From assembly GCA_905221615.1 (NCBI GenBank), contig CAJNDT010003779.1, positions 372,001 to 436,000 of the forward strand: a DNA stretch of 64,000 nt. The letters run 5' to 3'. The stretch's first letter is position 1. The number at the start of each line of letters is the position of its first letter. This stretch comes from Symbiodinium sp. CCMP2592. Taxonomy: Eukaryota; Sar; Dinophyceae; Suessiales; Symbiodiniaceae. Below, piece after piece: positions 1,339 through 63,186 of this stretch. A program made the position numbers and the translations under genes. The notes under the pieces were generated by a model that saw nothing but the letters and a program-made list of their open reading frames with translations, was not told where the DNA came from and ran no database searches.

Positions 1339-1405
1339 GTACGTGGTGCCGGCGAAAACCTTCGTGGAGATGGCGGCCCTGAAGCCCTTTGAGGTGCTCC
1401 TACAG
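1339..1405 (+). CDS. Exon 1 (first visible) of a split ankyrin-linked gene
   Basis: This is a coding island between runs of telomere-like repeat. It follows a T-rich tract ending in GAG and stops at CAG|GTGCGT, a good 5' splice site. It reads 22 codons from 1340, beginning YVVPAKTFVEMAALKPFEVL. In the dinoflagellate family I recognise, this segment lies just before an acidic stretch and an SHQW motif. The join to the island at 3545 is in phase 0. The protein's function is unknown. The family combines a short conserved N-terminal region with C-terminal ankyrin repeats, which usually mediate protein contacts. Earlier exons probably lie upstream of the window. Confidence 0.55.
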
Positions 1406-1943
1406 GTGCGTGCTCTGCGGTTTAGGGTTTATAAGTTTAGGCCTTAGGGGTTTAGGGGTTTAGTGTTTCGGGTTTCGGGGTTTAGTGGTTTAGGGTTTAG
1501 GGGTATAGGGTTAGAGGTGCTCCTGCGGTTCTGGGCTCCCAGCGCTTAGGTTTCGTGGGTCTCAGCGCTTAAGGGTTTAGGATGGTTTTACTGATATAGG
1601 GTAGAAGCGCTTTATATTTTGGGGTATGAGGGCTTAACCGTATAGGGGTTAGGGTATGAGGGTTTAAGGTATTAGAGGTTACTGGCTGAAGGGTTCCTTG
1701 TAGGGCTGTGATATGGTTTTCCGCAAGTTCGATGATTGGCTGAACGTTTGAGAACTTCATGTACCCTAGCTGTGGGGACCATAAGAAGGCATGATTAACA
1801 GTCCAAGGCCTTAAAGTTTTCGGTTTTAGAACCTTGGGGTGAGACGCTACTTATAACAAACCCTAAACCCTAAACCTTATTATAGCGTTTTGGGTTTAGG
1901 ATTTACGTTTTTGGGGGTGTATGCCTTCAGGGTTCAGGGACTG

Positions 1944-2060
1944 TACTTGGAGGTTCATGCGACTGCCGGTCATAAGTACCTTAACTGGGGCTATAACAAA
2001 TTATAAGCCTAGTTATCTTAATTATAGCCCTAGTTACTAAGTCCCATGAACCTTCAAGTA
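1944..2060. mobile_element. Foldback element, family A (diverged)
   Basis: Ends TACTTGGAGG and CCTTCAAGTA. The left arm is altered (CGACTGCCGGTC instead of the GGGACTTAGTAAG core), while the right arm is well kept. Confidence 0.6.
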
Positions 2061-2231
2061 GGGGGTTACGGTTTGGGATTCGGCCTCTTGGGATGCTTTG
2101 GGTAGTCGGTTGCTGCATTTTGACTCGAGCCTGAACCCCATGTGAAGCTACGTTCCCTTCATGCTTCTTTGGCTTCTTGCTTTGGGTTTGGGGGGTTTGG
2201 GCTTTTGGTTTTGGCTTCGGAGTCCAGGGCT

Positions 2232-2355
2232 TACTTGGAGGATCATCGGACTTAGTCAGTAGGTTATAATTGGGGTTATAAGTCCCCTAAGTCAGGTTAT
2301 CCTAATTATAACCTACTTATAACCTTACTTACTAAGTCCCATGAGCCTTTAAGTA
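2232..2355. mobile_element. Foldback element, family A
   Basis: TACTTGGAGGATCATCGG to CCTTTAAGTA. Both arms are complete. Confidence 0.7.
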
Positions 2356-2528
2356 GGGCTTATGTGGATTTCGGGTTCGGGCGTTGCAGGGTTGAGGTTG
2401 GCCCGGCTTGTGGGTCTAGGGTTCTCAGGTTGATCCAAGATCCCTGAATAAAGGGAAAAAAAGGTAACTATACTTTTATAACTACTTATAACCCCAACGA
2501 AGGTCATAATCCAATTCCATAATGGTAG

Positions 2529-3070
2529 TATATATGGTCAGGCGTCTGGCGTTCCCAGCCCCCCCCCCCCCCCCCAATGGTATGGTCTCACAGGGGTGGG
2601 GGGGGGGGGGGCCTGGCGCGTGCGGAAAGGGGTTGGGGGCTGTTGGAGCTGCCGCTGCATGGTGGGGTGGTGCTGGCGGCCAGGGCTCACGCGCAAGCCC
2701 TTCGCAAGCAAGCCGCAAACCCTATAACGCAGCGCGTGCCCCCGTTTTGAGCAACCTTAACTTGTACTTAAAACGCTGCACCCAACCTAAACCCCACCTA
2801 ACTGCAGGCTCTAAGCCTAAAGCAGAGCATACACCGCAAATCCTCCCTAAGCCCTTGTCGACTCCAAGCCTTATACCTTATAACCGTAAACCCAAAATTC
2901 AAAAGCTTAAGCTAAACCCTAAACCCCAAAACCCCACAACCACCCCACAGGGGGAAGAGGAACCCCACACCCCACACCACAGGGGAGGGGGGCGGCCCCA
3001 CCCTATATCCGGACCATTGACCTTTGGGGGGGGAGGGGGGGGGGGGGCTGCGGAGCGCGTGACCATATAT
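2529..3070. repeat. Long foldback with homopolymer G/C runs
   Basis: TATATATGGTCAGGCG near the left end faces CGCGTGACCATATAT at the right; inside each arm lies AGCCC...C or its complement. An ORF (2522-3109) crosses it, but its repeats and composition argue against coding. Confidence 0.45.
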
Positions 3071-3079
3071 GGACCCTCT

Positions 3080-3201
3080 CCCAGAACCCCGGGAGGATCT
3101 AGAAAGTAGATCCCCTAATTCGGGGCCCTATACTACTAAGGGTACTTTATAGGAACCCCCATTAAGGGATCTACTTTCTAGATCCTCCCGGGGGTCTGGG
3201 T
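3080..3201. mobile_element. Foldback element, family F
   Basis: CCCAGAACCCCGGGAGGATC with AGAAAGTAGATCCC pairs with its mirror ending CTCCCGGGGGTCTGGG. Confidence 0.65.
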
Positions 3202-3202
3202 A

Positions 3203-3285
3203 ACTAAGGAATATTCCAATAAATCATATAAGGGATCCTACCAGAATTTAAGGTATATCCCTTAGTTAAGGCATATTGGAGTCTT
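3203..3285. mobile_element. Foldback element, family G (partial)
   Basis: AACTAAGGAATATTCC ... AATTTAAGGTATATCCCTTA matches the complete copy at 47667. It abuts family F. Confidence 0.55.
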
Positions 3286-3544: not shown

Positions 3545-3605
3545 GAGGGAGTTCTGGTGGCCTTCGATGACCAAGAGGGGCACGCCTTGTTCGTGTCGCA
3601 CCAGT
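3545..3605 (+). CDS. Exon 2 of the split ankyrin-linked gene (SHQ motif)
   Basis: After CACGAG it reads EGVLVAFDDQEGHALFVSHQ and then meets an in-frame TGA, so the exon should end at or just before that point. The family normally continues SHQW, then HPDP a few residues later, and the next island (8994) supplies the HPDP part. A GA-AG intron from 3606 would keep the frame but puts S instead of W after SHQ. The border is therefore uncertain. Surrounding DNA is telomere-like repeat with no coding look. Confidence 0.6.
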
Positions 3606-4325
3606 GACTGGGTTCTGTAGAGGTTAGGGTTTAGGGATTTAGGGTCTAGGGGTTCAGGCGTTCAGGGTGTAGGGCTTTGGAGGGTCGTGGGGCTTAGTAA
3701 GTAAGGCTACAAGTACCTTCATTCGGGCAATTAGCAATTGCAAAAATAGTTGCCTGAACAATAAATCTTCAAGCAGTGGTTCATAGGCTTCATCAGACGT
3801 TACAATGATGAGAGTTGCCGGTTCAGGGCGAGTATAAGAGATTTGAAGGTTTCAGGCTTTCCAAGTATAAGACCGTATAAGACTTTAATGAGGTGAGGTT
3901 TCGGGTTAAGGCCACTATGTGTTGTTTTACCACTTTATAGTAGATCTTTCAGAAGTTTGGACTGTCTTTGCCACCCTGTAAACCTTAAAACCTGTACTGC
4001 CTAGTTTTTGTTGCTTCGGAGCTCAGGTGGCTGACATCGGCACCCAGGCTGTGATTGGATTCGGACTCGGTGTCAGGAAATGGATCTTACAATTTGGCAT
4101 TTGGGACCTGGGGTTTAAGGCTTTCGGGTTTTGGGGTCTAGGTTCTTAGGGTTCTGCGGTTCAAAGCTTGGGGCTAAGGGTCTTATCGTCTTAGGGTTTA
4201 AGAGTTTCAAAGCCTGTGGCTCAAGCGAGCAACATCTCACAGGATGGATAATGATGGTTGATACATGGTTAGGATTTGGGGTTTAGGACTTGCAGCAGTG
4301 GCAGTATGACGGCCATACTGATCGC

Positions 4326-4936: not shown

Positions 4937-5287
4937 ACAAGCCAAAGGCCCTGATCCTTGAGCGTGACACCCGAAAGCTTATGCAGAAACCATGGTAGGT
5001 GCGGTTTAGGGTCCTTCAAAACCACAGAACTCAAAACCGCAACCCCTAAGCCCTGAACCCTAAAACCTCAACCTTACACCCTTAACCTCTAAACCCCAAA
5101 CCACTCCCAAACCCCTCAAAACTGCAACTCATAAGCCACTAACGTCCGAAGCCTCAAACTCCACTGCCCCTTAAACAAAAATCAGCAGCCAGCCTTAAGC
5201 CCCCGGGCCCTTGAGCTTAGTTGGGTTTAGGGTTTAGTAGGGTTTAGGGCTTAGGCTTTAGGGTTTTAGGGTTTAGGGTGTAGGGTT

Positions 5288-5439
5288 GCACCCCATATTC
5301 ATGCAACGACTGGTCGGCGCACGTTGATGCTTGTCGTCTGTAGCAAGGGTAGCCGAGGAGCAGTGGCATCAACTGAAGCTCTGATGTCATGTCATATCTT
5401 CATATGTGGCTCCAGTCAGAAAGCTGCGCCAAAGGCGTG
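5288..5439 (+). repeat. Retroelement split repeat A1
   Basis: 152 bases, matching 8494-8645 without a difference that I can see. It holds the first ATG of the ORF. Confidence 0.85.
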
Positions 5440-7921
5440 GTGTGCCTGTCTTGTGCAGCGTGGGGTGGGACATGATGGCTTCCTGCATCTAAGAACCGGT
5501 CGCAGGAGTTTATGGCTTTCCGCCTGTGGCCCTCTGCTTTGGGTGCTTTACGACGCTTTCTACATGTCGCCCTCCAAGCTGCGGCGAGACTCGCATAGGG
5601 CCCGTGCTCACAGCCATTATCTGCTGGCACTGGGGTGTTGCGCTGAGCGGATGCCTAAGACTTCAACCAGAGTTCGTTCACCGTCCAGCAGGCGACTCGC
5701 TCGTGCTCGACGCGCTTCGTGGTTAAGTTGGCGAGCCGACCGTCATGCTGATGTTCCGCGAGACCCAGTGTGGCTTCTTGACCGCTTGCGACGTGCTGCT
5801 GTTCACAACACTGGCCGTTTTGGTGACTTTGTGGCAAACTTTGCTCCCGGGCCTAAGTCAGGCCGGCAACGTGACGTGTTCCCGCTGGGCCCGGTCACTG
5901 GACTGGAACACAAACCTGCTGGCATGTTCGTGGGCCGTTGGCATGTGCTGGTGCGCTTCGTCAATGTGATAGTGGCTACACTGAATTGGTTGTATGGGAT
6001 GAAACAAGATGCTCGAGCTCCTGCGAAGTATACCGCTTGTCAGCGGACAGTGGTTGAAAACGTGGTGGCCCGTGCAAACTCCGTGCTGACTCGGCTTGAG
6101 GCCGTGGAGAACGGCAGTTGGGAGCGGTTTTTGCCCGACTTCGTCACCGGACCTCTTCGCCCTGCTGCTGCTGCTGCTTCATCCTTTCAGGACTTGATCG
6201 CTGATCGGGTTGACAACCTTGAAGCTGCTGCCATGTGTGACCCCATGCCGCACCTGCCGCTTGACGTGCAGTTGAAACTCTGTTGTGCGAGCGAGATTGT
6301 TTCTGACCCTGGGGACAACTTGGATTGCTTTGAGGGAGTGACACGTGGTTCCAGGGAGGAGTACGCCAAGCTGGTGGTGAAGCAGTTGCGTTGTGGGAAA
6401 CTGGGGCTGTCAACGTGGTGCAAGGCAGGAGGGACAACTTTTGCTGTCGGCAAACCTGGTGGTTCACGTTTGCGTGAGGTCTGGGACGGGCGTCGTGTGT
6501 CAGAAGCCTCGGCAAGGCCCCCTAAACCTCGGCACCTGGCCTCACCCACTGCCTTGACTTTCCTCGAGTGCACACAAGAACACCCTTTTCGGCTTAGCAA
6601 GCGGGACGCTTCTTGTTGGTTTGACCAGCTCAAGCTCCCTCCTGCTCTCCGTCTTTACATGGCCAAGCCAGCGCTTTCGACAGCTGAACTTTGTAGAGCA
6701 GGAATGCCAGTTCATGAGCAGAAGCAGCACTTGGAGGCTGGTCAGACATGGCGTCAGGGCCCCGTTTTCCCTGTGCATCATGTTTGGCCGATGGGCTTTT
6801 CCTGGTCCTCTTACATTGCGCAAGAGGAAATGCTCAGTGTTTGTGAAGAGGCTGGCATACCGGAGAATGCCCTCATGGCATGTGATCTGGAAACTCCTGC
6901 CACGTTCGAGCTGGTAGCGGCTGTGGCCACCGATGATGTCATGATGTTCAGCAATGCTGGCCCAGGCGTTACATCAAAAGCTGCGCGAGACTTTGATGAA
7001 GCTATGCGTGGACGGGGGGCAGTTCGTAATTCTGCCAAGGATGTCAACGATGAGCTCTGCGGCACTTGTGTTGGCGTCGACTTGGACAGTGGCTGCTTCC
7101 TGGATGTGCCTGCTGCCAGGTTCATGTCCATGATTTTCGCATTTTTGCATCTTCATGCAAACAGAGTCGCTTCTCCAAAAGACGTGCAGCAGCTGCTAGG
7201 GGCCCTTCAGTGGTTCGACCTTCTGGTTCGTCCGAAGCTCTCCGTCTACAGCGACATCTACAAGTTCACCCTTCCGGGCACGAGCAATGCCGTTCTACTC
7301 CCTGCTGAAGTTCTGGCAGAGTTGGCATGCAGTCTTTGCTTGGGGATCTTTTGGCGATGTGATCTCCGAAGGCCTTTCCTTCCTCTCGTGGGGGCGACTG
7401 ATGCAAGCACTTCCTACGGGTTCGGCGCTTCATATGTTCGGACCACTTCGACGGTGGCTCGCAAGCTCGCGCGCGTGGCAGAGAAGCAAGGGGCTTTTGT
7501 GGTGATGGATGGTGGAGCTGGCAGAGCGCTGGGAGTTGACCGTCTGACCGAGGCCTACAAGCTTAACTTGAAGTTGGAGGACTTTTCAGACATTCTCAGC
7601 GTGCGGTGCAAGTTCCCTGCGCACATCAACGTGTTGGAAGGTGAGGCTTTGGTTCTTTTCTTGCGCTGGCTTTTGCGAACCAAGAGGCATCACTCAGCCA
7701 GGGTGGTGGTGCTGCTGGATTCTGCTGTCCTTTTGGGAGCAGCTGCCAAGGGACGCAGTTCTTCCCAGCTCAACAGGCTGCTGAGAAAAGTGGCTGCTTT
7801 GACTTTGGCCGGGAGCCTGCAAGCACATCTCATCTTCGTTCCTTCAAGTGAGAACCCTGCTGATTTCCCTTCTCGTGGTGTGCGACGACGTCGGGTTCAT
7901 CGGGAAGCTCGGGATCTTTAG
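5327..7921 (+). CDS. Reverse transcriptase-RNase H polyprotein of the retroelement
   Basis: This is an uninterrupted ORF of 864 codons from the first ATG, which lies inside repeat A1; the true start may be later. The first 300 residues are basic and unassigned. Reverse transcriptase signs are WPMGFSWSSYIAQ (from about residue 487) and the catalytic pair in ATDDVMMF (D536-D537). RNase H follows: D692 in VGATDAS, E771 in NVLEGEA, D798 in LLDSAV and D846 in NPADFPSRG, matching the RNase H ending seen in DIRS-like and related elements. No protease, integrase or R..H..R..Y recombinase signature was found. Only 386 bases remain before repeat B1, too few for a recombinase domain. The element should copy RNA to DNA but may need a recombinase in trans. 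Confidence 0.85.
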   Translation: MLVVCSKGSRGAVASTEALMSCHIFICGSSQKAAPKAWCACLVQRGVGHDGFLHLRTGRRSLWLSACGPLLWVLYDAFYMSPSKLRRDSHRARAHSHYLLALGCCAERMPKTSTRVRSPSSRRLARARRASWLSWRADRHADVPRDPVWLLDRLRRAAVHNTGRFGDFVANFAPGPKSGRQRDVFPLGPVTGLEHKPAGMFVGRWHVLVRFVNVIVATLNWLYGMKQDARAPAKYTACQRTVVENVVARANSVLTRLEAVENGSWERFLPDFVTGPLRPAAAAASSFQDLIADRVDNLEAAAMCDPMPHLPLDVQLKLCCASEIVSDPGDNLDCFEGVTRGSREEYAKLVVKQLRCGKLGLSTWCKAGGTTFAVGKPGGSRLREVWDGRRVSEASARPPKPRHLASPTALTFLECTQEHPFRLSKRDASCWFDQLKLPPALRLYMAKPALSTAELCRAGMPVHEQKQHLEAGQTWRQGPVFPVHHVWPMGFSWSSYIAQEEMLSVCEEAGIPENALMACDLETPATFELVAAVATDDVMMFSNAGPGVTSKAARDFDEAMRGRGAVRNSAKDVNDELCGTCVGVDLDSGCFLDVPAARFMSMIFAFLHLHANRVASPKDVQQLLGALQWFDLLVRPKLSVYSDIYKFTLPGTSNAVLLPAEVLAELACSLCLGIFWRCDLRRPFLPLVGATDASTSYGFGASYVRTTSTVARKLARVAEKQGAFVVMDGGAGRALGVDRLTEAYKLNLKLEDFSDILSVRCKFPAHINVLEGEALVLFLRWLLRTKRHHSARVVVLLDSAVLLGAAAKGRSSSQLNRLLRKVAALTLAGSLQAHLIFVPSSENPADFPSRGVRRRRVHREARDL

Positions 7922-8307: not shown

Positions 8308-8493
8308 TGGGCTTGAGAGCTGCAGAGGCCGAGGACACCGTCTACAGTTGGCTAAGTCAACATTGGACAGGCTTTTGTTTGCATGAACTCTTCTCTAACA
8401 TACCGGCAGCTCCTCCTGTTCAAATGCGCCGCTGTGATTGCTGTGGGAACTTCCGCATCGGAGAGGCCTCTGCGAGAGGGATGTCTCATGAAT
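8308..8493 (+). repeat. Retroelement split repeat B1
   Basis: 186 bases, matching 8682-8867 without a visible difference. It abuts A2 directly. Confidence 0.85.
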
Positions 8494-8645
8494 GCACCCC
8501 ATATTCATGCAACGACTGGTCGGCGCACGTTGATGCTTGTCGTCTGTAGCAAGGGTAGCCGAGGAGCAGTGGCATCAACTGAAGCTCTGATGTCATGTCA
8601 TATCTTCATATGTGGCTCCAGTCAGAAAGCTGCGCCAAAGGCGTG
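8494..8645 (+). repeat. Retroelement split repeat A2
   Basis: Second copy of A1. The B1/A2 junction shares its bases with the element ends, as expected if it is the template used to rebuild the termini from a circle. Confidence 0.85.
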
Positions 8646-8681
8646 CCCCACCCTCCCTGCCCTGTAAGCTTACAAGCTGCG

Positions 8682-8993: not shown

Positions 8994-9067
8994 CGGCCAA
9001 GGGGCATCCCGATCCGAAGATGGAGCAGCTCAAGATTCTTCAGGACGCCTTGCCTCTCGGCTGCACG
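8994..9067 (+). CDS. Exon 3 of the split ankyrin-linked gene (HPDP motif)
   Basis: The island starts after TTCCAG and ends before GTTTAG. It reads AKGHPDPKMEQLKILQDALP, then LGCT. The HPDP...EQ...L pattern follows SHQW in this family. Two bases before the first full codon match the phase of exon 2. It lies 127 bases beyond the retroelement end at 8867, so exons 2 and 3 now flank that insertion. Confidence 0.6.
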
Positions 9068-9659
9068 GTTTAGGGTTTAGGGGTTTGGGGTTTAGGGGTT
9101 TGGGGTTTAGGATTTAGGGGTTTGGGGTTCAGGGTTTAGGGGTTTGGGGTTTAGGGGTTTGGGGTTCAGGGTTTAGGGTGGGTGTTGGTGGTGGTGGCGG
9201 CTGTGGGATGGTGAACAGAGGTAGACAGTGGATCTCCCAAGACTTTCTACACATCAGCAACCGCTTGCAAAGACCGGGCATAACTTCAACAGCACCTCTT
9301 GGATATTCTGTAGTATAGACCTGAACCCCGTACCACCCGAACCCACATCCAACAGGAACGACGAAGCCCTGAACATACAACCAAAAAGGATCCTAAAGTC
9401 CGAAAGCCAGGCCGACAAGCGCAATCAACCGGAAGAAGATGCAAGGAATACAGTAGAAGCCTTACAATCGGAAACCCAATAGCCTCAACCCTCTAAGAGT
9501 AATTCTTGAGGGAATCCCAGCCACAATTTGGCCTTTATGTCGGTTTCCTCCTTTATGGGGGGGCTTATTGTCGTCTATACGGGTCCTGAGTTAAAGGACA
9601 GCGAGGGCTCCTGACTGCAGGAAACGCTTTCAAGCCTGAACCCTAAACGTCCTAAAGCA

Positions 9660-11009: not shown

Positions 11010-12260
11010 TACAACCAAACAGGAAGAACATCCTGGCTGGCGTTTCCACGGTCCCTGCAAGTCTGGGCTTGGAGTTCTTGGAAGGCCGGGCCTTTTGGGT
11101 TTAGGGCTTCAAGGGTTTAAGGGTTTAGGCCTTTAGGGCTTTAAGGGCTTCAGGCTTTAGGGGTTTAGGGCTTCAGGGCTTTAAGGGTTTAAGGGTATGA
11201 TGGGGTTTAGGGCCTAGGGTTTAAGGTTTAGGTTTTCAGGGTTTAAGGTTTAGGGCTTTACGGGTTTAGGGGTTTAGTGGGTTTACGTGTTTGTCCAGGG
11301 GTTGATGGTTCAGGACTTTGAACTTGGGGGTTTAAAGGGTTTAGGGGTTGGTTTTTAGCGCTTGGTCTGAGGGTTTAGCATTTAATGGTTTAAGGGTTTG
11401 CTGAATGCAGAGCTTTGCTTTTTCCCTTAGGGTCATATGGGGTTGTATAGGTGTCCCTTGTCAAAGTTGCAGATGGTTTTACAGCGGTTTTTGTGGGATA
11501 CCTTAAAGCCCTAAACCCAAATCCCTACACCCTAAACCCCCAAAAAGGAGCCCTTAAAAACATAAAAAACCCTAAAGCCTTAAACTCAAATCCCTAAACC
11601 CGAATCCCTAAACCCTAAGGCTTAAACCCAACTCCTAAACCCTAAAGCCTCAAAGCCCAAATTCTTCCAAGTTTTGGACCGGCACCGAGTCGGAAAGACC
11701 TAGGGGCCCGGGTTTGGTACCGAGGTTCCCCTGTGGTTTTAGGGTTCAGCGGTTCGGTGGTTCAGGGGTTCAGGGTTTAGTGTTTCGGGGTTCGGGTGTA
11801 GGGTTGGGTTTAGACTCTGGGGTGTTGTTTCGGGTTTCAAGCTGGTGTCATTGTGCTTCTTGGGTTGCAATCAAGGGCCATGGAAGCGTTGAAAGCACCA
11901 TATAGAACTCCGAAAGCTATGGATGTGAGTTTTTGGACTTGCCCTTGATTGCAAACCACCCCAAAGTGGCTTTAGATGTCCCATGCTTCGTAAATGAGCA
12001 GCGTAAAGTGCAAAGCAGTCTTTTGGGGGCCATCCGTTTGCTGTGCGACCCTGCGCTTAAGCCGAAAACCCCAAAGCCAGAACTCTGAACCCAAACGCCC
12101 TAAATTCGGTCTCTAGATCCAAGGCCACAAGCCTTTGATTCGTCCTCAACTCCCCAAAGCCCCAAACCCTAAGCCCAACAAAAGGTAAAACTCCAAGCAA
12201 AAACCACGTCGACACACTCGCTCAAAAGAGCTTCCGATTTAGACCGCGCCGGCAGCGATC

Positions 12261-12610: not shown

Positions 12611-12701
12611 CGCTTCGCCTCGAGCAAGGCCGGGGTGGTGCTGCCGTCGGCGGTGAAATGTGCGGCAGACCTCTGCCGCCGGGCTTCGTTGGGTTCTGCA
12701 G
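12604..12701 (+). CDS. Possible exon of the split gene, between exons 3 and 4
   Basis: This GC-rich non-repeat island reads FASSKAGVVLPSAVKCAADL in one frame and ends near TCTGCAGG. Its place, between the HPDP and VWYDY islands, is where the family has a variable linker. The phases of exons 3 and 4 do not match each other, so at least one exon is missing between them. This is a candidate only. It may equally be non-coding GC-rich sequence next to a foldback element. Confidence 0.25.
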
Positions 12702-13029: not shown

Positions 13030-15110
13030 ACAAGCGGGTTCTGGAGCAATGCCCGCCTCTGAAGGTTTAGCTTTTTAAATTCGTTTTTGCGGCATGGCCG
13101 ATTGTAGGAGGCAGAAGGTTATACCAAGGCATGGAGATTGTGGTTGGGATTTTGTTCGGAACCAGTTTTCAAGCTAGTAGCAACCAGAATTTAATAGAAT
13201 CATGCAATCCGCATGCCACTTCGGTTGCCACTCATTCAAATATTCCGTGAAGGCATCATGCCTTATTGCAGGCAAGTTCTTGGAAATTCGGATGCTGCGA
13301 CAAATGAAAAAAGCATCTTAAGATGCATCTTGTCCTTACTTGCTGAATTAGCTCAGCGACCAGGCCGGTCGCATGCCATTAATAGAAAGAAATGCTGAAT
13401 CCATATTGTTCGGATATGGTGCTTTCAACCAGAATTCGGCTTGAATCCAATGACCGGCAGGCCGGATAATACAAGATATTCCTGAAGCCAGTCGCTCAGT
13501 CGCATTTCTGCAGAGCAGGTCGGGGCCGAATCCTATTTGCCGCATTGCTCATATATCGTGAAAACATCACACAGTCTTGTAGCAGGTTGGTTCCGAATCT
13601 TTCAGATGCGTTCCACATTCTTTTTGCGAAGGTCTTTCCCAATATGCTGCGAAATGCAAAAAAATACGTGGATTACGTAAGCCCGGAATGCTATTCTTCC
13701 TAAACACCATACTTTAGGAGTTTCCAAAACACATTTCCTAAGCAATAAATACCTTACACGCGGCTCCGAAACTCTGTTGCACATAGTCGTACGTCTCGGC
13801 CAGTACATTCTTGACCGAATCCAAGAATTTTGACGAGTACGTTCTTGACCGAATCCTACAATTCGCATGCTACGATAAGCTAAACGAGCTCCATGATTTG
13901 CTTCAATTTGCGTTGTAATACAAGATCTTGCCGTGTCTGGACCAGAATTCTGAATTTCACGTCGTCGGGTGTAATTTCGTCGATTGTTAGCTATGTGACA
14001 ACATCTTCGTTGACTCATGAAAGTCGCATGGCCACAAGCTCGGGATGGGAACGCAAGCGTGTCCGCAAACGTCCTCGTTGGTAAGTTAGTTGCTCACAAC
14101 CACAAGCTTGAGGTGGTAACGTCACCTTGTCCTCGACCATCTTTACAAGCAACAAGCTCCCACCCACAAGCTTGCGACGGTGACATACTCGTGACCTCAC
14201 ATCTCTTCGCTGGTAAGTTCCTCAAAACCATAAGGTGGCGAGGGTTAGTTACCTTACGGTGTCCCCGAACTTGTTGACTGGTAAGTTGCTCATAGCCACT
14301 ACTTCTTCAATGATTTCTTTTTCACTGTTTAATTTCGCTTGTTCTCTAACCCAGAGAGCTTGATTTAACAAGTTTTGAACCCTGTCTCGGAAACCTGCAA
14401 AGCTGCATCCCGTACAGCCATTCGTCCCGCAACGTGGAGGTCGCGAACCGAGCTTGTATTCAGAGAGACCAGAAAATGGCGACACGAATTACAACGAAAC
14501 GCAGAATGATCGGCAAGAGCCGCGTCAGCCAGTCAGCTTGTTGCCACTCGCAATTCGGCAGGGAATGTACGTCTCTGCAGATGGACATTAAAATTCATCC
14601 AGCAACTCGACGAATTATTTTTGCAACCACGTCCCGGTGGTCGTGATGCGCCTTTATTCCGAGAGATTGGTTTCGGAACTACGACCAACATGGAGGGGAA
14701 CCCCGAAAGACCCAATGTAAACCTCGGCCGTCAAGCGCCAGAAGTACAGCGAAAGCTTCACCGCAGCAGTGCATGCAAGCATGACGTCTTGAGGGCCTCG
14801 ACTTGCGTGAGCATGGACCATTTCGTGTCTTCCTCAGACGTTGATGCAGCTAAATCTCAGGCGTCTTGGAGATTCTGCTTGTAAACTGAGGAATAGAGCC
14901 TCCAGCGAAAGTTTAAGTATGTGGTCATGAGCGTCCTGCGAGGATTAAGTGGATTCACATATTGAGTCCACCGCGAAGGCTTCAGTACATGAAGGTATTG
15001 GAGCCCACCGCGATGGTTTAAGTAAATTGAAGCATCGAGCCCCCACGAGTTGCGACAAACAAAGACTAGCATCGCATATCTGATAATCTGCATGCCGCGG
15101 AAACGTTATG
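13030..15110. repeat. Degenerate dispersed repeat region
   Basis: This region lacks telomere-like repeats. It holds scattered GCATGCTACGATAAGCTA motifs with CCGAATCC nearby, four decayed 65-base units with TGGTAAGTT (14030-14300) and three decayed units with GAG.CCACCGCGA.GG (14890-15050). No convincing gene was seen. Confidence 0.5.
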
Positions 15111-38308: not shown

Positions 38309-38394
<86 letters not shown>

Positions 38395-38477: not shown

Positions 38478-38539
<62 letters not shown>

Positions 38540-39585: not shown

Positions 39586-39624
<39 letters not shown>

Positions 39625-49329: not shown

Positions 49330-49401
49330 TACAAGAGACTCCAGGAAGATGCCAGCGAGATCATCGAGATCAAGGGCCCCCAGGAACAGGCGGGCATCCC
49401 C
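49330..49401 (+). CDS. Probable exon of the split gene (downstream part)
   Basis: This non-repeat island in telomere-like DNA reads YKRLQEDASEIIEIKGPQEQ, then AGIP and a stop at 49402. Possible borders are CCAG|GAAGAT at the 5' side and CCCCAG|GAACAG (a GA-type donor) at the 3' side. It fits the family stretch after the RGWCR block only loosely. Strand and order agree with the other islands. Confidence 0.4.
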
Positions 49402-50215: not shown

Positions 50216-50863
50216 GGGCTGAAACCCAAGTTTCAGTAAATGCAAGGCCATCGTTCCTGCTTCCACCTGGATGCGCTCGCCGGTGGGTGCTCCCTGGCAT
50301 GCTCCGGTATAATAGAAAAGCTCTTCTAAGAGTTCTGGATGAGTTTGGCTTATAGAGTCTTGTGATTTAAGTCCTCACACAACTAGAAGCCTGCATACCA
50401 TTATTCCTCGGGTTCCTTGGCAGAATTATTGTGTGATATATGTGCTTTCACCACTAAGCCCCTATAAGCCCCTATATTATACAATTCATGTAGACACTGA
50501 TTAAGCTCTTGGGTGTTCTTTGCTTTCAGCTTTTTTCTTGTGTGTGTGTGTGTGTGTTTTTGGGGATTTCGAAAGAAAGCATGTTTGCTTACCTTCTTTG
50601 GGGAGTATGGCTAGGGTGAGAGGGGGTGAGGCGGAGTGTCTTGGGTTCAGTCTAGGTTGTAGGGCTTTTGGAACGTAGGGTTAGGCTTTCGGGGAATGAA
50701 CACGGGATGTTCAAACCTGGGGAATGAACACGGGATGTTCAAAACTGGGTCGTGCTCTTCCCTTATCACCCCTGTCCAAGTTTTGCATAAGTTCGCCAGG
50801 CTACAGCCCGATTGCAGTTACACATTTAAGGGTTTGGGGGACTTCAGCGTTGCGGTGTATGTA

Positions 50864-51200: not shown

Positions 51201-51894
51201 CACCCAAAAGCCCAAAACCCTTAAGCCTCCTAGCGCTCATCACCCTGAATCCATGTGCCAACCTTCTGAAATCACAGGATAGGGTCTCTGGCTTAATCCT
51301 TAAACCCCAAACCCTAAACCCTTAAACCCTTAAATCCTCAAACCCTAAACCCTTAAACCCTCAAACCTTAATTCCTAAACCTTAAACCCTTAAACCCTAA
51401 AATCCCAAGGCGCGGACCTACGCTTGCCCTAAGCGAAGACAAGATGCCTCTAACGCCACATTCACTTCTAGGTAGTTCAAAAGACAGGACCCAAGCAGGG
51501 AGCCTGAGTAGTGCATCCCTTCATGTGAAGTAGGCTTACATTCAGGATGGTGGGGCATGTAGGAGGGGGTCATTGCGAGTGTATTTTGGATGTCCTTCTT
51601 CTCGTCAAAGCCATTGTACTTCATCCTGAGCCCAATGCCGTTTGCCTTAAAGTCTAGTCCATACACCATCATTCCTTAACTCCCAAACCCCGAACCTTAA
51701 GCCCCAAGCTCTAAGCCGTGGCATAAGCCCAACCCAAAACCTTAAACCCTAAACCTTTACCCCTACACCATGAACCCCAAACCCTTAACCCCTACACCCC
51801 TAAAGCCTAAATCCAAACCCCCAAAACCCCTAGACCCCTAGACCCCTAAACCCTAAACCTAGACGCGCCCACAGTTGACCTACCCAAATAAGCC

Positions 51895-52095
51895 CTTATG
51901 CCGCTGCCCAAGCCACATTCTCAGCTTCAATTTCTTGCTCGTTGGGGGGTCAACAGGAGTCCAGGAGATGCCTTGCAACGGCCGCACAGTGGCACGGTCG
52001 ACAACATGTGGAAAATAATGAACGACGTCATACCTAGCGTCCACGCTGCGAGCGACCCCGCCTTGGTAAAGTATTTGCATCCGTTTTCTTTGTGA
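51895..52095 (+). CDS. Possible exon, unrecognised
   Basis: An ORF starting MPLPKPHSQLQF runs 65 codons and includes DNMWKIMNDVIPSVHAASDP, which has the composition of real protein. It is flanked by telomere-like repeats on both sides. The position is consistent with another exon of the split gene, but I cannot match it to the family. Confidence 0.25.
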   Translation, partial: LMPLPKPHSQLQFLARWGVNRSPGDALQRPHSGTVDNMWKIMNDVIPSVHAASDPALVKYLHPFSL

Positions 52096-53704: not shown

Positions 53705-53793
53705 AGCTGCCGAGCCTATCTTGGTGGCAGGTGTTGCAGCAGATGGTTCGAGACAAGATGACGGCTTTTCTGATGCCGGCCGGCTTCCGTTTA
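53705..53793 (+). CDS. Probable exon of the split gene
   Basis: It reads QLPSLSWWQVLQQMVRDKMT, then AFLMPAG. In the family a stretch with CDK...I..VL..M...K precedes the region seen in the next island, and VLQQMVRDK fits that spot. An internal acceptor at 53730 (GGCAG|GTG) is an alternative start. Confidence 0.45.
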
Positions 53794-54235: not shown

Positions 54236-54696
54236 CGCAACAGCACCCTTTTGGTCTTTTCGGTTTTGGATTCCCTTGTTAAACCCAGATAGTAGGAGAA
54301 TGGGCACCCTTTTTGTCAACGGGCTACTGGTAGGTATGGTTGCTTTATGTTTAGACATGCTGCTGAGTCCTTTGATCCTTCAGGTACAGGAGCCGCAAAA
54401 CCAAACCCTAACCCCAAACCCTCAACCCTTCCCCGCCAGACGAGTTTACGATGTTTATGAAAGAAAGGACGACTTTTCTCAACAACAGACAACTCAGCAC
54501 ACACACACACACACCCAAGGAAGGGCCCCTCCATTAGATGAAAGCAAAAATGAGTCCAAGGAAGGAACGAACACATACAGCATTTCAACACAGATATACC
54601 AAAATGAGCACTCATTTCCAATAAGAGAATCGTAAAGTAAGTGCAAAGCTTCCTAAATTCCCAAGCCCTACACCTTAAAACCTAAGCCCAAGGAAG

Positions 54697-54787
54697 GGGA
54701 ACTTCCACAAATACCGCCTCATCTTCGCTTTGCTGCGTGCGCACTTTGCCGGCCTGCCCAAGAAGCCCGTGGAGAACCTCGTTCCAG
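54697..54787 (+). CDS. Exon of the split gene (YRLIFALL..AGLP segment)
   Basis: After AAGGAAG it reads GNFHKYRLIFALLRAHFAGL, then PKKPVENLVP, and ends at TTCCAG|GTAGCC, a canonical 5' splice site. The family has YR.L.A....L.AGLP at this point, before the first ankyrin repeat. This is one of the better supported downstream exons. Confidence 0.55.
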
Positions 54788-55670: not shown

Positions 55671-55738
55671 GCTTCGTGTCGAAGGCCACCGACCCAGCTG
55701 ACTTCTTCCTGGCAGAGTACATGAACCAGAAACTGTCT
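55671..55738 (+). CDS. Probable exon of the split gene
   Basis: After GTGGAG one frame reads GFVSKATDPADFFLAEYMNQ, then KLS, with a possible GC donor just after. Hydrophobic and charged residues alternate as in a helical linker. It sits between the AGLP exon and the first ankyrin exon, as expected. Confidence 0.4.
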
Positions 55739-56389: not shown

Positions 56390-56485
56390 GAACGGCTTCT
56401 CCAGTGTCACGGATCGGAGCGCGGAAGGCTGGACGCCTCTGTGCTATGCCTCCTTGCTGGGCAATCCAATGCTGATCTACGCCCT
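56390..56485 (+). CDS. Ankyrin-repeat exon of the split gene
   Basis: After GCCCAG it reads NGFSSVTDRSAEGWTPLCYA, then SLLGNPMLIYAL. The G.TPL..A...GN......L pattern is an ankyrin repeat core. A GT donor (CCCT|GTGGCT) follows. Ankyrin repeats are protein-binding modules, and the partner is unknown. Confidence 0.6.
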
Positions 56486-57452
56486 GTGGCTCGGCGGTTT
56501 CGGGTTCAGGGTTTAGGGTTTAGTTGGGTTCTATGACGGTTCTGCAACGGAGCTGCAAGGGTTGTTGTTAGGGCTTAGGGGGTTCGGCTGCAGTCCAAAT
56601 ACTCTGGCAAATAAGTCCCATGATCCTTCAAGCATGACGCTTCTGCAAGGGAGTCTGGGTGGCTTTATATGGGGTTCTATAGGCCCTTCTGGGGTTTCAT
56701 GCGGCTATCAGGGCTTTTAGAGTTTGAGGGTTTCGAGGGTACCTGGGGTTTGGGTTTAGGGTTGAGGGGTCAGCGGCCCGAGTTTCATTTAGGAGTCTCG
56801 AGCCAGAAGGGATCGAAGAGCAGGATAATTCGACAAAGAACCCGAGGAGGCACCTTTTCGAACCCTGAGTCTCTACATGGGTGGTTGTCAAAATTAGGGT
56901 TCCTTTTTGGGTACCCTAAATCATAGGTGGGACCCACTCACATGTGATATTCTAATTTATGCTAGAAACCCTAGTTTGCGTGTATCACGGCTTCTGCAGT
57001 GTGGCCTAGCCTTGAATTCGGGTATTGCGGTTGAAAGTTTATCAGCGGTATACCCAGGGAGGCAAGTATCTACCCAGTAGGTATGAAATTTGACTGAAGA
57101 ATGAAGAAGGTATTCATTTACGAGACATTCCTGTTGAGGGGTAGTGGCTCCCTGAAATTCTCGGTCGTTTTAAACCTAAGTCGCAAGCCCGAAATACGTA
57201 GGGCGTAGGGTACCTCTTCAATGAGCTGCAGTTTCCGTCAGTTACGATTGTTGCAACTGTTGGGTGTCCTTACTATTGTGGTAGGCTCTCCGGTTATCAG
57301 TTCAAGAATGATACTGAGGCACAGAGGCCGGAAGAAGTGAGAGCACCATGCCTTCTTATAGGGGTATCACAACATACCTCCACGACTTAGTGGAAAACCT
57401 CGGGTTCCTACTTCAGAACAGCCTTGAAACGACCCCAAGGTTGGAACATCAA

Positions 57453-57515
57453 GCAGACCCCAACGACGCTATCTCGCAGCTGGGCTGCGATGCGGGCATG
57501 CCGCGGTTTCGTCGG
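57453..57515 (+). CDS. Possible ankyrin-linked exon
   Basis: One frame reads ADPNDAISQLGCDAGMPRF. ADPN commonly ends one ankyrin repeat and starts the next, and the place follows the ankyrin exon at 56390. The borders are unclear because the flanks give no strong splice signals. Confidence 0.35.
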
Positions 57516-58104: not shown

Positions 58105-59760
58105 AAGCCTAAGCCCTAGACCCAAACGCTCTGAACCCTAACCCTAAATCCTAAACCTTAAACCCTAGACCCAAACGCTCTAAACCCTAACCCTAAATCC
58201 TAAACCTTAAACCCTAGACCCAAACGCTCTAAACCCTAACCCTAAATCCTAAACCTTACACCCTAGACCCAAACGCTCTAAACCCTAACCCTATATCCTA
58301 AACCTTAAACCCTAGACCCAAACGCTCTAAACCCTAACCCTAAATCCTAAACCTTACACCCTAGACCCAAACGCTCTAAACCCTAACCCTAAATCCTAAA
58401 CCTTAAACCCTAGACCCAAACGCTCTAAACCCTAACCCTAAATCCTAAACCTTACACCCTAGACCCAAACGCTCTAAACCCTTACCTTAATCCTAAACCT
58501 TCCACCCTAGACCCAAACGCTCTAAACCCTTACCCTAAATCCTAAACCTTAAACCCTAGACCCAAACGCTCTAAACCCTAACCCTAAATCCTAAACCTTA
58601 AACCCTAGACCCAAACGCTCTAAACCCTAACCCTAAATCCTAAACCTTACACCCTAGACCCAAACGCTCTAAACCCTAACCTTAAATCCTAAACCTTACA
58701 CCCTAGACCCAAACGCCTAAACCCTAACCCTAATCCTAAACCTTAAACCTAGACCCAAACGCTCTAAACCCTAACCCTAAATCCTAAACCTTACACCCTA
58801 GACCCAAACGCTCTAAACCCTAACCCTAAATCCTAAACCTTAAACCCCTAGACCCAAACGCTCTAAACCCTAACCTTAAATCCTAAACCTTACACCCTAG
58901 ACCCAAACGCTCTAAACCCTAACCCTAAATCCTGAACCTTAAACCCTAGACCCAAACGCTCTAAACCCTAACCCTAAATCCTAAACCTTAAACCCTAGAC
59001 CCAAACGCTCTGAACCCTAACCCTAAATCCTAAACCTTAAACCCTAGACCCAAACGCTCTAAACCCTAACCCTAAATCCTAAACCTTAAACCCTAGACCC
59101 AAACGCTCTAAACCCTAACCCTAAATCCTAAACCTTAAACCCTAGACCCAAACGCTCTAAACCCTAACCCTAAATCCTAAACCTTACACCCTAACCCAAA
59201 CGCTCTAAACCCTAACCCTAAATCCTAACCCTTACACCCTAGACCCAACGCTCTAAACCCTACCCGAAATCCTAAACTAAACCCTAGCCCAAACGCTCTA
59301 AACCCTACCCTAAACCCTAAACCTTAAACCCTAGACCCAAACCCTAAATCCTAAACCTAAACCCTAGACCAAGCTCTAACCCTAACCTAAATCCTAAACT
59401 TACACCAGACCCAAACGCTCTAACCTAACCTAATCCTAACCTTACACCTAGACCCAACGCTCTAAACCCTAACCCTAAATCCTAAACCTTAAACCCTAGA
59501 CCCAAACGCTCTAAACCATAACCTTAAATCCTAAACCTTACACCCTAGACCCAAACGCCCTAAACCCTAACCCTAAATCCTAAACCCTAAACCCTAGACC
59601 CAAACGCTCTAAACCCTAACCCTAAATCCTAAACCTTAAACCCTAGACCCAAACGCTCTAAACCCTAACCCTAAATCCTAAACCCTAAACCCTAGACCCA
59701 AACGCTCTAAACCCTAACCCTAAATCCTAAACCTTAAACCCTAGACCCAAACGCTCTGAA
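58105..59760 (-). repeat. Higher-order array, 49-bp unit
   Basis: About 33 copies of a 49-base unit containing CCTAGACCCAAACGCTC plus CCCTAAA-like parts. The period was counted at 58161-58210. The block 59260-59460 has many single-base losses. Confidence 0.85.
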
Positions 59761-60246
59761 CCCTAGCTCTAAACCCTAAACCTTACACCCTAGACCCAAA
59801 CGCTCTAAACCCTAAACCTTACACCCTAGACCCAAACGCTCTAAACCCTAAACCTTACACCCTAGACCCAAACGCTCTAAACCCTAAACCTTACACCCTA
59901 GACCCAAACGCTCTAAACCCTAAACCTTACACCCTAGACCCAAACGCTCTAAACCCTAAACCTTACACCCTAGACCCAAACGCTCTAAACCCTAAACCTT
60001 ACACCCTAGACCCAAACGCTCTAAACCCTAAACCTTACACCCTAGACCCAAACGCTCTAAACCCTAAACCTTACACCCTAGACCCAAACGCTCTAAACCC
60101 TAAACCTTACACCCTAGACCCAAACGCTCTAAACCCTAAACCTTACACCCTAGACCCAAACGCTCTAAACCCTAAACCTTACACCCTAGACCCAAACGCT
60201 CTAAACCCTAAACCTTACACCCTAGACCCAAACGCTCTAAACCCTA
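59761..60246 (-). repeat. Higher-order array, 36-bp unit
   Basis: About 13 near-perfect copies of a 36-base unit, counted at 60001, 60037 and 60073. It equals the 49-base unit minus 13 bases. Confidence 0.85.
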
Positions 60247-60441
60247 ACCCTAAATCCGAAAGCTCAAGCACCGTAAAACCCTGAACCCTGACCTCCAAGA
60301 GCCCTCTTATCTGACCGCCTGCTTGGAGGGGCTCCTTAAAAGGGATCTATAGGGATCCTTAAAGGGATCGATGGGGATCCTTAAAGGGATCTATAGGGAT
60401 CTTTAAAGGGATCTATGGGGTTTAGGCTAGGGTTTAGGGTC

Positions 60442-60553: not shown

Positions 60554-60562
60554 GACCCTAAG

Positions 60563-60655
60563 CTGTCTGGTGCCCAGTAGGGAATGGGGGAATGGTTTAT
60601 GGGGACTACTATTGGGGATTATATGGGGACTAGAAAAGGGATTCCATTCCCCCAA
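60563..60655. mobile_element. Foldback element, family D (right end worn)
   Basis: CTGTCTGGTGCCCAGTAGGG at the left matches 4643; the right side ends at GATTCCATTCCCCC. Confidence 0.55.
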
Positions 60656-62346
60656 CCCTAAACCCAAAACCCTAAACTCTAAACCCTAAACCAGGGAGTA
60701 AGCCCAGCAGGCAGCCCTCGTCATTTTGCCACTTCGCGAGTGGCACCTCCGGACTTCAGATGTGTAGCCGCTGGGCAGCGACAGAGCCCTAGAGAGTTTT
60801 ACTCGGTTGTATAGGCTTTTAACTCTGGGTTGCAGAAGAGATTATTGCATCAATCGGATTTCTATAGGGATTTGCAGCCTTTTTCAGGGCTTCAACAGGG
60901 CTGCTAGGTGTTTCATCGCGGTCTAAGTCTAAGGAGCTGGGAAGACTTTGCTTTCCCTGAACGAAGGCTTCGGGGGGCTCGCGGTTTAAGGTTTAGGGTT
61001 TAGGGCATTCATCACGGTTTCCAGGTTTCGAGTCTTTTTCTGGGTTTTCTCAGATTTTAAGATTGTTAGTTTTGCGTTTTGTTGTGTTTCCGGCCTTATG
61101 TTTTCCATAGAGTTTCGTGGGTCTAAATTGTTAGCTTTCTGCGTTTCTTGATATTGTTGGGTTTCTATATTGCTTCCCAAAATTTTGTAAAGCTTCTAGA
61201 GGAGTGTTGGAGATATGAATGCTGGTCGTCCTGATTGTTATGTTCCCCCGTACCCCATTCAGTCTTCTTCCTGTGAAGGCAATTGAGGTCCTCGAAACGT
61301 TTCAGCCTGAAGCCTACCCTTTACCCTAAACCCTAAACCCTGAACCCTAACCCTGTTGTTCAACAGCATACAAGTCTCAGAGCTCAGGCTTCTTGGGACA
61401 CAACGAGGCTTTGCGACAGCCCCTTGGGTGAAGTCCATAACAAGAGGGTTCTTCAGTGGAAAGGTTCCGTAGTAAGGAATCTGTGAAATAGAGATCTATA
61501 GAAGGGAATGTAAGTGTTGTATGTAAGGGTTCTACAACAGCAGGGGTTCTGTAGCAATTGTTCCATCAGAGGGCTCTGTTGGTTTGTGGGTTAGGGGTAG
61601 CCAATGGCCCTGTGCTTCCAAGGTTTATGCAGCAGAATTCAGACGTCGCAACACAGACGTTTGCTGACCCTAAACCCGCAACCCTAAACCCTAAGCCCCT
61701 AAACCCTACACCGTAACAGGGTTTTCCTTTTTGATGCTTGCATGCTTTGGCTTCAGATCCTAAGGCCGCTCCGGGATTCCGGACTTTGTGGGGTTTTCTG
61801 CTTGTTCCAGGGTTTAGATGCGACATGGGTTTAGGGTTTAGGGTTATATGAGGGTGTGGGTTTGGAGTTTATAGTTTTCGAAAACTACGGAACCCTAATA
61901 CAGTTCCCGAAATAATAGTAGGATCCTCAATAATAAGGACCCCAAAAGACGGTACCCATCATTTTCTGAAACTCTAAACCCTAAACCCTTTACAGAACCC
62001 TTATAGCTCCCTTACAGGGAGCCCTTAAAGGATCCCTTCAAAGGTAGACCCTAAATCCTAAACCCTAGACCCTAAACCGCTAAACTGCAGACCCTAAACG
62101 GTTAAACCCTAGACCCTAAACGGTTAAGCCCTAAAGCCTAGAGCGTTATGCCCTCAACCCTAAACGGTTAAACCCTAAACCCAAAACAGTTGAAGCCCAA
62201 GCCGCAGCCTAAGCCCTAAGGAGCCCGAGCTCTCGGATTCGTGGATTGAGGGTTGGAGCTTACCCTAATATACGGGTTTTGAATGATTAGAATAGGGTTC
62301 CTTTTAAAGGGGTCTACAAGGATTACTATTTGGGGTACTATTGGGG

Positions 62347-62456
62347 TTTAGTTTAGAGGCCTAAATAATTACCCATACTGTTGTGGGGGCTCCTTATCAT
62401 ATTTATAGTTTTCTGGGCCCCAAAACCCTATTCCAAGTATTAAGGCCTCTATATTA
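62347..62456. mobile_element. Foldback element, family B
   Basis: TTTAGAGGCCTAAATAATTA to TATTAAGGCCTCTATATTA. The ends are well paired. Confidence 0.6.
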
Positions 62457-62666
62457 AACCCTATTCTAATTATTCCGGTTTCTACATTGAACCCAATGAG
62501 TCCGAAATTTTTGGAGAATAGCTGCTCACTCAAATCATTCGGCGCTAAAACCGAAGGCACTGCAACTTGAAGCCCTCCCTGGAGATTCCAAAACCCCCTT
62601 GGTCTCAAGGAATGTACCCAGATCTACGGTTTAGGGTTTAGGGTTTAGGGTTCCGACACTCCTTAG

Positions 62667-62734
62667 TTACGGTAGATATACCTTGCATCGTATGAGGGAT
62701 CTTATCGTCATACGATGTAAGGTATATCCGTGAA
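62667..62734. mobile_element. Foldback element, family L
   Basis: TTACGGTAGATATACCTTGC arm with CATCGTATG pairs with CATACGATGTAAGGTATATC. Confidence 0.55.
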
Positions 62735-62948
62735 TACAGGATTTTAGACATGAGGCACTCGCACTGGAGACTCCTCCTAGTATAAACCATGTAGAACCCC
62801 TGAAAAGGAACCCTTAGAACTATATGGGAGTACATGGGCCCTTAAACCCTAAACCCTGAATCCCTTATAGAACCATTAAAGGAATCCCTCTTTGGGTACA
62901 TGGAGCCTTGGGGATGCAGGAGCCCTGGTCAAGAGGTCCCTTGTTGCG

Positions 62949-63085
62949 TACTTGGAGGGTCGGGGGACTTAGTAAGTAGGTAGTAAGTAGACTTATAAGT
63001 ACCCTAAAAAGGGACCCTAATTGGGGTTATGGTACTTATAAGTCACTAAAATAACCAGTTACTAAGTCCCCCGACCCTCCAAGTA
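62949..63085. mobile_element. Foldback element, family A, GGTCGGGGG subtype
   Basis: TACTTGGAGGGTCGGGGGAC to CCCCCGACCCTCCAAGTA; the terminal arms are perfect inverted copies. It lies 12 bases before the last ankyrin exon. Confidence 0.7.
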
Positions 63086-63097
63086 CCCCGGATCCAG

Positions 63098-63186
63098 GCT
63101 CATCGCGCACCGCGCGGACGTCACCGCCGTGAACGGCAGCGGTGCTACGGCTCTTCACTGGGCCGCAGCTGGGGACAACGTGGAAG
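63098..63186 (+). CDS. Ankyrin-repeat exon of the split gene (last visible)
   Basis: After GATCCAG it reads LIAHRADVTAVNGSGATALH, then WAAAGDNVE. L....ADV....G.TALHWAA..G is a textbook ankyrin repeat. GTGGAAG|GCGCAG is a possible GC donor. It begins 13 bases after a foldback element ending at 63085. The gene should continue beyond the window. Confidence 0.65.

Follow-up and report, generated by a model that had tools for sequence, protein, structure and literature searches.

The modelled gene and its exons

The sequence examined, referred to as the window, is a 64,000-nucleotide stretch of the + strand of a Symbiodinium sp. CCMP2592 contig (C3779:372001-436000), and the genome searched comprised 1,098,105,373 bp in 5,383 contigs. 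Window coordinates are used throughout, positions above 64,000 lying beyond the window on the same contig. The window carries 20 of the 30 modelled exons of what is quite probably one nuclear gene of a large SHQW/WYDY-ankyrin family, spliced as a single transcript and accompanied by oriented arrays of a telomere-like heptamer. The original prediction, made from the letters of the window, had proposed one ankyrin-linked gene spread over about 62 kb of telomere-like filler. The motifs that it quoted are all present on the + strand in the order given, the first island starting at 1340 and the GATALHWAA island ending at 63186.

Single-exon paralogs from the same genome, with open reading frames (ORFs) of 569-740 amino acids, were used as the splicing template; they carry the motifs of the window in unchanged order, with the full protein in one ORF. 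Ten loci with long family ORFs were fetched (L019-L028, 569-740 residues each), and the ORF of L008 has 606 residues. For the profile, L020, L021 and L028 were trimmed where the C-terminal family alignment fails and L019 was left out, giving a splice-aware alignment of 590 columns from 10 paralogs, or 586 columns when the three closest rows were weighted threefold. A tblastn comparison of 15 paralog sequences with the window and 50 kb on each side revealed collinear islands at 1331, 3536, 8996, 24803, 26314, 47899, 54697, 55670, 56358 and 63099, and further islands past the window end at 70529, 73111 and 75621. This list omits other rows with E < 1, such as Ser/Leu-rich L019 matches and isolated weak matches on either strand. 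The island at 47899 (ESRAWCRLERA) had not been named before.

The spliced protein alignment by which the original prediction was to be checked was run with the paralog profile and gave one chain. Its score was 756 when AG/G acceptors were preferred (the slash marks the splice site), compared with 59 on the reverse complement and 55 with a reversed profile. Neutral AG acceptors gave 732 compared with 83 and 62, and a second alignment that included a donor matrix scored 836 compared with 55 on the reverse complement. The model contains 30 exons on the + strand from 1340 to 76629, with a total of 1,620 bp and a mean of 54 bp, in a span of 75,290 bp that is 2.15% coding. It runs past 63,186 and 12.6 kb past the window, so that the 62 kb first proposed was too short for a chain of 75 kb. 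The 29 modelled introns have a mean length of 2,540 bp and a median of 1,425 bp, the longest being 21,528, 11,520 and 5,385 bp. The exons inside the window amount to 1,132 bp, or 1.83% of 1340-63186, in agreement with the predicted coding share of less than 2%. The predicted islands are real, ordered and on one strand; their number, given as about thirteen, is closer to 20 modelled exons, 15 of them among the 21 strong exons described below. That the exons chain in frame along the paralog profile supports a single family gene exploded over tens of kilobases, as had been suggested.

Exon reliability was assessed by scoring the longest ungapped run at every position of 209,000 bases, made up of the reverse complement of the region and flanking DNA. 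The strong exons, 21 of the 30, beat all control positions (nos. 1-4, 6-8, 11, 13-17, 19, 20, 23, 25-27, 29 and 30). For exons 18, 21 and 24 there were 1, 4 and 4 equally good control positions, none with splice sites in place. In the following list of exons in the window, chain refers to the profile chain and control to this comparison.

1340-1405, + strand: exon YVVPAKTFVEMAALKPFEVLLQ, preceded by TTTTTTTGAG/G (profile chain; 0 of 209,000 control positions as good)
3545-3603, + strand: exon EGVLVAFDDQEGHALFVSH(Q) (chain, control); end at 3616 in the first model, likely end at 3603 with donor GTGACTGGGTT
4027-4039, + strand: tentative candidate micro-exon of 13 nt, reading SHQ-WLTS-GHPDP (intron search; skipped by the second model)
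9002-9051, + strand: exon GHPDPKMEQLKILQDA (chain, control); start at 8986 in the second model
11023-11089, + strand: exon KNILAGVSTVPASLGLEFLEGR (chain, control)
13253-13296, + strand: weak exon candidate for columns 94-106, at chance level; the second model uses 12625-12674 instead
24817-24895, + strand: exon FVWYDYLCCPQVEGKREEAILSLPSY, the WYDY exon (tblastn, chain, control)
26314-26365, + strand: exon VEKCRFFAILCPPVQNS (chain, control)
47894-47984, + strand: exon GETLSKGTYESRAWCRLERACRMLTLQDL, following the 21,528-bp intron (tblastn E 9e-5, chain, control)
49157-49180, + strand: weak exon candidate for columns 187-199, at chance level
49375-49405, + strand: weak exon candidate for columns 200-210, at chance level
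50831-50860, + strand: exon GLGDFSVAVY (chain, control); GLGDFSV, to 50851, in the second model
52053-52070, + strand: weak exon candidate RPRLGK (control weak); the second model uses 51563-51580 instead
53731-53774, + strand: exon VLQQMVRDKMTAFL (chain, control)
54693-54787, + strand: exon KGNFHKYRLIFALLRAHFAGLPKKPVENLVP (tblastn, chain, control); to 54810 in the second model
55671-55728, + strand: exon FVSKATDPADFFLAEYMN (chain, control); from 55685 in the second model
56390-56485, + strand: exon NGFSSVTDRSAEGWTPLCYASLLGNPMLIYA, ankyrin (tblastn E 1e-6, chain, control)
57440-57505, + strand: exon LEHQADPNDAISQLGCDAGMP (chain, control)
60741-60769, + strand: exon GTSGLQMC(S) (chain; 1 control position as good, none with splice sites)
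61388-61418, + strand: exon FLGHNEALR (chain, control)
63098-63186, + strand: exon LIAHRADVTAVNGSGATALHWAAAGDNVE, ankyrin (tblastn E 4e-4, chain, control)

The family motifs SHQW, HPDP, WYDY..CPQ, SIPxY, CxFF.LCP and WCR.E occur in order, with the variants SLPSY, CRFFAILCP and AWCRLER; the tryptophan of SHQW is recovered in the split gene only via the micro-exon candidate. The C-terminal ankyrin repeats matched Pfam Ank with an E value of 1e-9, using two joined islands plus a few bridging residues added by the investigator, and Ank was also found in three paralogs (best E 5e-19). The N-terminal family region gave no Pfam match; it may bear some resemblance to TIR domains. A joined query of several islands returned at least 201 matches in the genome, exon pieces counted singly. 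Among the matches listed, family members with long ORFs are clustered locally (for example at C5340:233-249 kb and C4941:1101-1208 kb), and the family consists of clustered single-exon members and exploded members.

Some features of the chain weigh against its being one gene. Exons 5, 9, 10, 12, 22 and 28 (6 of 30) are weak, profile columns 94-106 and 187-210 have no convincing exon, the 3' end of the modelled chain is open, and a search of the 30 kb upstream of the chain found no N-terminal family motif. The islands could also be two or three tandem fragments of different paralogs brought together by chance, to which the size of the family and the long intron from 26.4 to 47.9 kb lend some room. 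However, tblastn placed every strong family segment once, in order and on one strand, and the chain uses each once over 75 kb, which makes a chance assembly very improbable.

Long genes of tiny exons are already known in dinoflagellates. The genes of Effrenium voratum have a mean length of 20 kb and a mean of 18 introns, with introns making up 92% of the gene (PMC11114475), and an intron of 26,372 bp is given for Crypthecodinium cohnii (PMC11453091; this and the other published sources are cited from excerpts). The present gene resembles such Symbiodiniaceae and other dinoflagellate genes in its many introns, its mostly intronic length and its GC and GA donors. It differs in lying towards the long end, with 75 kb, about 30 exons and 2% coding sequence, and in the oriented arrays, which the excerpts do not mention. 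As a gene it is long but of a kind already known, and what is new is the oriented arrays. Its shape warns that ordinary gene prediction may miss such genes.

Splice sites and the in-frame TGA

The splice sites look like those of a dinoflagellate, with AG/G acceptors and GC, GT or GA donors. Under neutral scoring a G followed the AG at 22 of 30 acceptors, and at 19 of 22 for the confident exons; the acceptors outside the 22 are at 6335, 13925, 20284, 48642, 49863, 52053, 65890 and 73941. The donors at 23 confident exons were GC in 11, GT in 10 and GA in 2, these being the only three types allowed, and this mix is within the range given for Symbiodiniaceae in the excerpt cited (PMC11453091). A loose extended motif, G[CT]nnC..GG, recurs at the donors, for example at 9052, 24896 and 26366, with C at +5 in 13/22 and G at +8 and at +9 in 13/22 each.

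The simplest model of exon 2 reads SHQ-TGA-LGS where the paralogs read SHQW or SHEW, the TGA being at 3605-3607. Scored with a donor matrix derived from 22 further exons, the donor at 3604 (GTGACTGGGTT) obtained 5.6 bits, compared with 1.3 bits for the donor after the TGA. The following 5.4-kb intron was searched for AG/GTGG with an in-frame donor, enclosing 4-19 nt, and the sole candidate was 4027-4039, which keeps the family spacing. In the second model exon 2 ends at 3603 and is joined to an extended exon 3 without the tryptophan. Both the micro-exon and the extended exon 3 are stop-free, so neither reading requires a stop, and the TGA at the SHQW tryptophan probably lies within the intron.

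A dead gene, that is, a repeat-inflated pseudogene with the TGA as its lesion, would account for the in-frame stop of the simplest exon 2 reading, for the two missing profile stretches and for a stop in the poorly aligned end of exon 23. The genome was searched with the DNA of exon 2 and its flanks for a second copy by which to judge the stop, and this locus alone was returned, a result that also fits a dead gene. Nevertheless the best donor precedes the TGA, either joining reads through stop-free, and 19 of the 21 strong exons are stop-free as modelled, the other two being exons 2 and 23. After the donor scoring and the micro-exon candidate a pseudogene was set aside as unlikely.

Orientation of the heptamer arrays at the exons

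Exact TTTAGGG-type heptamers cover 9.3% of the gene compared with 0.5% of one shuffled sequence, and the 95-kb region holding the split gene contains 3,463 of them, or 36 per kb. At the ten single-exon paralog loci the density was 0.2-8.3 per kb in nine and 16.4 in L019. The original prediction had the introns consist of heptamer repeats and foldback elements; exact heptamers make up only 9.3% of the gene, and the long introns share their space with long open frames, minisatellites and simple repeats. Fugacium kawagutii and other dinoflagellates are reported to have telomeres of the TTTAGGG type (PMC11453091, PMC7023079). Like interstitial telomeric repeats, the arrays have the heptamer of the telomere, and here they are internal, degenerate and oriented relative to exons. 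Three arrays illustrate the arrangement:

9067-9180, + strand: donor-side array of TTTAGGG (G-rich), starting about 16 nt past the exon
24644-24801, + strand: acceptor-side array of CCCTAAA (C-rich), ending about 16 nt ahead of the exon
24941-25154, + strand: TTTAGGG arrays directly past the WYDY exon

The orientation was measured at the ends of the 29 modelled introns, using 300 nt per end or half of shorter introns; heptamers had no role in the exon alignment. The first 300 nt contained 608 exact heptamers of TTTAGGG type and 151 of CCCTAAA type, compared with 68 and 391 in the last 300 nt. The 5' ends were richer in the G-type in 19 of 26 introns showing a difference, and the 3' ends were richer in the C-type in 21 of 25. 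When the positions of the 21 strongest exons were tested against 5,000 circular shifts under eight settings, the summed statistic gave p values of 0-0.0004 and the fraction of concordant edges p values of 0-0.018. Within 60 nt of these exons the donor-side arrays were G-type in 12 of 13 cases and the acceptor-side arrays C-type in 7 of 9 (7/10 with smaller arrays). Gaps with a C-type array before and a G-type array after (C..G) hold 13 of 24 exons while making up 21% of gap bases (p 4e-4).

This pattern has exceptions that weigh against a strict rule, namely G arrays on the acceptor side of exons 1 and 3 and a C array on the donor side of exon 17. The arrays are also not specific to the gene, the flanks having an exact heptamer coverage of 6.4% and 5.6%.

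The main rival to a splicing role derives the introns from introner-like mobile elements and takes the arrays to be the terminal inverted repeats of these, the orientation then following from the build of the element and not from splicing. The G..C arrays do face one another across introns like inverted repeats, and, judged by eye, family members seem to differ in their intron positions, L003 perhaps sharing one. Massive intron gain through introners is described for dinoflagellates (PMC11453091). Introner-bearing genes make up 5% in E. voratum compared with 4% and 3% in symbiotic relatives (PMC11114475), and the introners of Amoebophrya carry inverted repeats of 8-20 nt at the intron ends with hairpins (PMC7789003). 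A likeness to introners of Amoebophrya, Polarella and others would lie in inverted repeats at both intron ends, for which hairpins are proposed (PMC7789003). The repeats of Amoebophrya are short and differ from one another, and direct repeats mark the boundaries, whereas here one telomere-like heptamer is shared and the arrays are tens to hundreds of bases long and mostly lie a few to tens of nucleotides inside the splice sites. Those within 60 nt are mostly 8-53 nt inside the intron, not at its extreme ends, the exon 8 array touching the modelled exon end. Complementary repeats near both intron ends, as expected of introners, were found as oriented arrays at many ends, but 7 of 29 introns lack exact heptamers over 300 nt at one end, and pairing is not intron-specific. 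No sequence other than the heptamer was seen to be shared between introns, in an analysis that included no systematic search for such sequence. An introner-like origin agrees with the geometry of the arrays and with published introners; as the explanation of the orientation it is considered somewhat unlikely, and origin from introners and use in splicing could both hold.

The arrays might alternatively pair within each intron, forming a hairpin that joins the splice sites. Predicted duplexes between the ends of 18 introns had a mean energy of -80 kcal/mol compared with -62 kcal/mol in 400 random segments of the same length (p 0.003), and one complete intron folded at a z score of -2.2. However, pairing between the two ends of one intron (-80.1) was not stronger than pairing between ends taken from different introns (-77.6, p 0.68), and 1 of 20 shuffles of the folded intron folded equally well. 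At 13 of 24 exons complementary arrays also lie on opposite sides of the exon, with gaps of 90-385 nt, and could loop it out instead. A hairpin is therefore quite unlikely, and less likely than a role of the arrays as splicing signals.

Orientation across the genome and in other genes

The orientation was next counted genome-wide using exact patterns with about two and a half repeats per side; the counts are forward counts, and the backwards-read pattern gave 0 in all six cases. At gaps of 90-120 bp there were 3,654 C..G and 430 G..C matches, an 8.5-fold difference, compared with 309 and 276 at 20-50 bp and 2,318 and 1,311 at 400-430 bp. The counts include repeated registers; among the matches listed, distinct places numbered 37 of 50 for C..G and 41 of 50 for G..C, giving a ratio of about 7.7. 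Among the three spacings tried, the excess peaks at 90-120 bp, which leaves room for a 60-nt exon and a further 15-30 nt to either side. The name of filler given to the heptamers in the original prediction therefore undersells them, as they are oriented relative to exons and show a strong orientation bias at exon-size spacing throughout the genome.

The 33 C..G gaps of 90-120 bp with complete letters all differ by eye. Their median best-frame codon score was 6.0, compared with 3.3 for 300 intron segments from this region (p 5e-6) and 7.3 for 16 known exons. The genome gaps also exceeded intron controls in an exon-parse score (p 2e-9), whose donor matrix itself favours G-rich neighbours. The split relatives (L001-L003 and L005-L007) have, in the investigator's reading, six arrays no more than 40 nt from a modelled exon edge, and every one fits the rule, two of them lying past the end of the last modelled exon. 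Most of the genome-wide gaps may be exons.

Several results weigh against extending the rule from this locus to the genome. Only 9% of the 33 gaps lay above the 95th percentile of the intron control compared with 31% of known exons, and that control consisted of intron segments, not of G..C gaps, so the comparison is not like-for-like. Ten gap peptides matched no Pfam family, and the assignment of one gap as P-type-ATPase or cation-ATPase-like was unsupported, the follow-up search finding only the gap itself. By the exon-parse score, the C..G gaps in 100 kb of flanking DNA did not stand out clearly from other gaps. Among the split relatives, one array in L003, at a distance of 71 nt, is discordant, L005 has an ambiguous one in mid-intron and L007 has none. 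A scripted tally within 400 nt gave 4 C and 1 G arrays upstream and 1 G and 3 C downstream, a count in which a single array can serve both ends of a short intron. Four of 12 myosin loci had arrays no further than 600 nt from the match, and 4 of these 7 arrays agree with the rule; at 20 dynein loci an array lay within 400 nt in 2 only, both on the wrong side, the other 18 having none.

The peptide of another gap had no PDB match. Myosin and dynein were dropped as independent support for the orientation rule, few arrays being near the matches. The arrays mark a subset of introns.

A possible role of the arrays in splicing

Exons of about 60 bases in introns of thousands of bases, with donor rules as loose as those of dinoflagellates, pose the question of how they are recognised. 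The present gene would most likely be transcribed as one very long precursor, from which the ordinary dinoflagellate spliceosome would remove the introns, and a spliced gene of this kind requires no new machinery. The introns may have grown by two routes, with mobile elements and satellites inserted into a few of them and heptamer arrays accumulating near splice sites. On the sense strand many exons are framed by the arrays, which tend to be CCCTAAA shortly before the 3' splice site and TTTAGGG shortly after the 5' splice site.

G-runs can act as intronic enhancers, and CTAAA in a C/T-rich context can act as a branch point. The orientation of the arrays may be kept because on the sense strand they would supply such splicing signals, next to the donor the G-runs of UUUAGGG and ahead of the acceptor, where the context is pyrimidine-rich, branch points of CUAAA type. 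The arrays could thereby help to define 60-nt exons inside introns of several kilobases. The use of the arrays as splicing signals is put forward tentatively, on the basis of their placement in the sequence. It is possible to a similar degree that telomere-like arrays form a genome-wide, oriented exon punctuation, whose splicing signals let tiny exons be found in very long introns.

If correct, telomere sequence would have been reused as part of a splicing code. The 8.5-fold, exon-size-specific orientation excess offers a concrete and cheap test, may aid gene finding and bears on intron gain. No report of oriented intronic telomere-like arrays, or of such a use in splicing, was found in the open-access literature searched, itself represented by excerpts, which leaves publication elsewhere possible; the excerpt of a study of splice sites (PMC8045281) does not mention telomere motifs.

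Other sequences in the introns

The long introns additionally carry long open frames, minisatellites and simple repeats. The largest heptamer array in the gene by far is a nearly unbroken CCCTAAA-type array of about 2 kb at 58134-60283, within a single intron. Intron 2 contains an open frame of 883 amino acids at 5270-7918 on the + strand, with a likeness to reverse transcriptase and RNase H seen by eye only; it had no solid Pfam match and no PDB match, and segments of it repeat at about 8356-8667.

The longest intron contains the following feature:

26366-47893, + strand: 21.5-kb intron with several long ORFs, simple repeats and, at 39750-40280, a weak match to C-5 DNA methylase

The open frames at 38770-40631 (+ strand) in this intron resemble C-5 DNA methyltransferase (DNMT) by eye. 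PF00145 matched 39750-40280 with 16.5 bits and an E value of 0.006, under the cut-off of 22, which falls short of identifying a DNMT retrotransposon, and gave no match at 38770-39549. Retrotransposons bearing DNMT are reported in Symbiodinium (PMC5890265). The frames at 38770-40631 are possibly such an element, a lead for which no complete element was delimited.

Trinucleotide repeats (AGT/GTT) in long arrays and a tandem repeat with a 30-bp unit lie in the same intron, at 35463-38560 and 36819-37486. Open frames starting DSITNLLAVASGTFKCL lie on the - strand at 15508-17266 in three copies with a period of 734 bp, forming a short tandem duplication. The segment at 17478-23509 consists of about 6 kb of a 13-bp minisatellite (AATTCTTATTCCC and relatives), a large part of which is arranged into higher-order units of about 172-227 bp.

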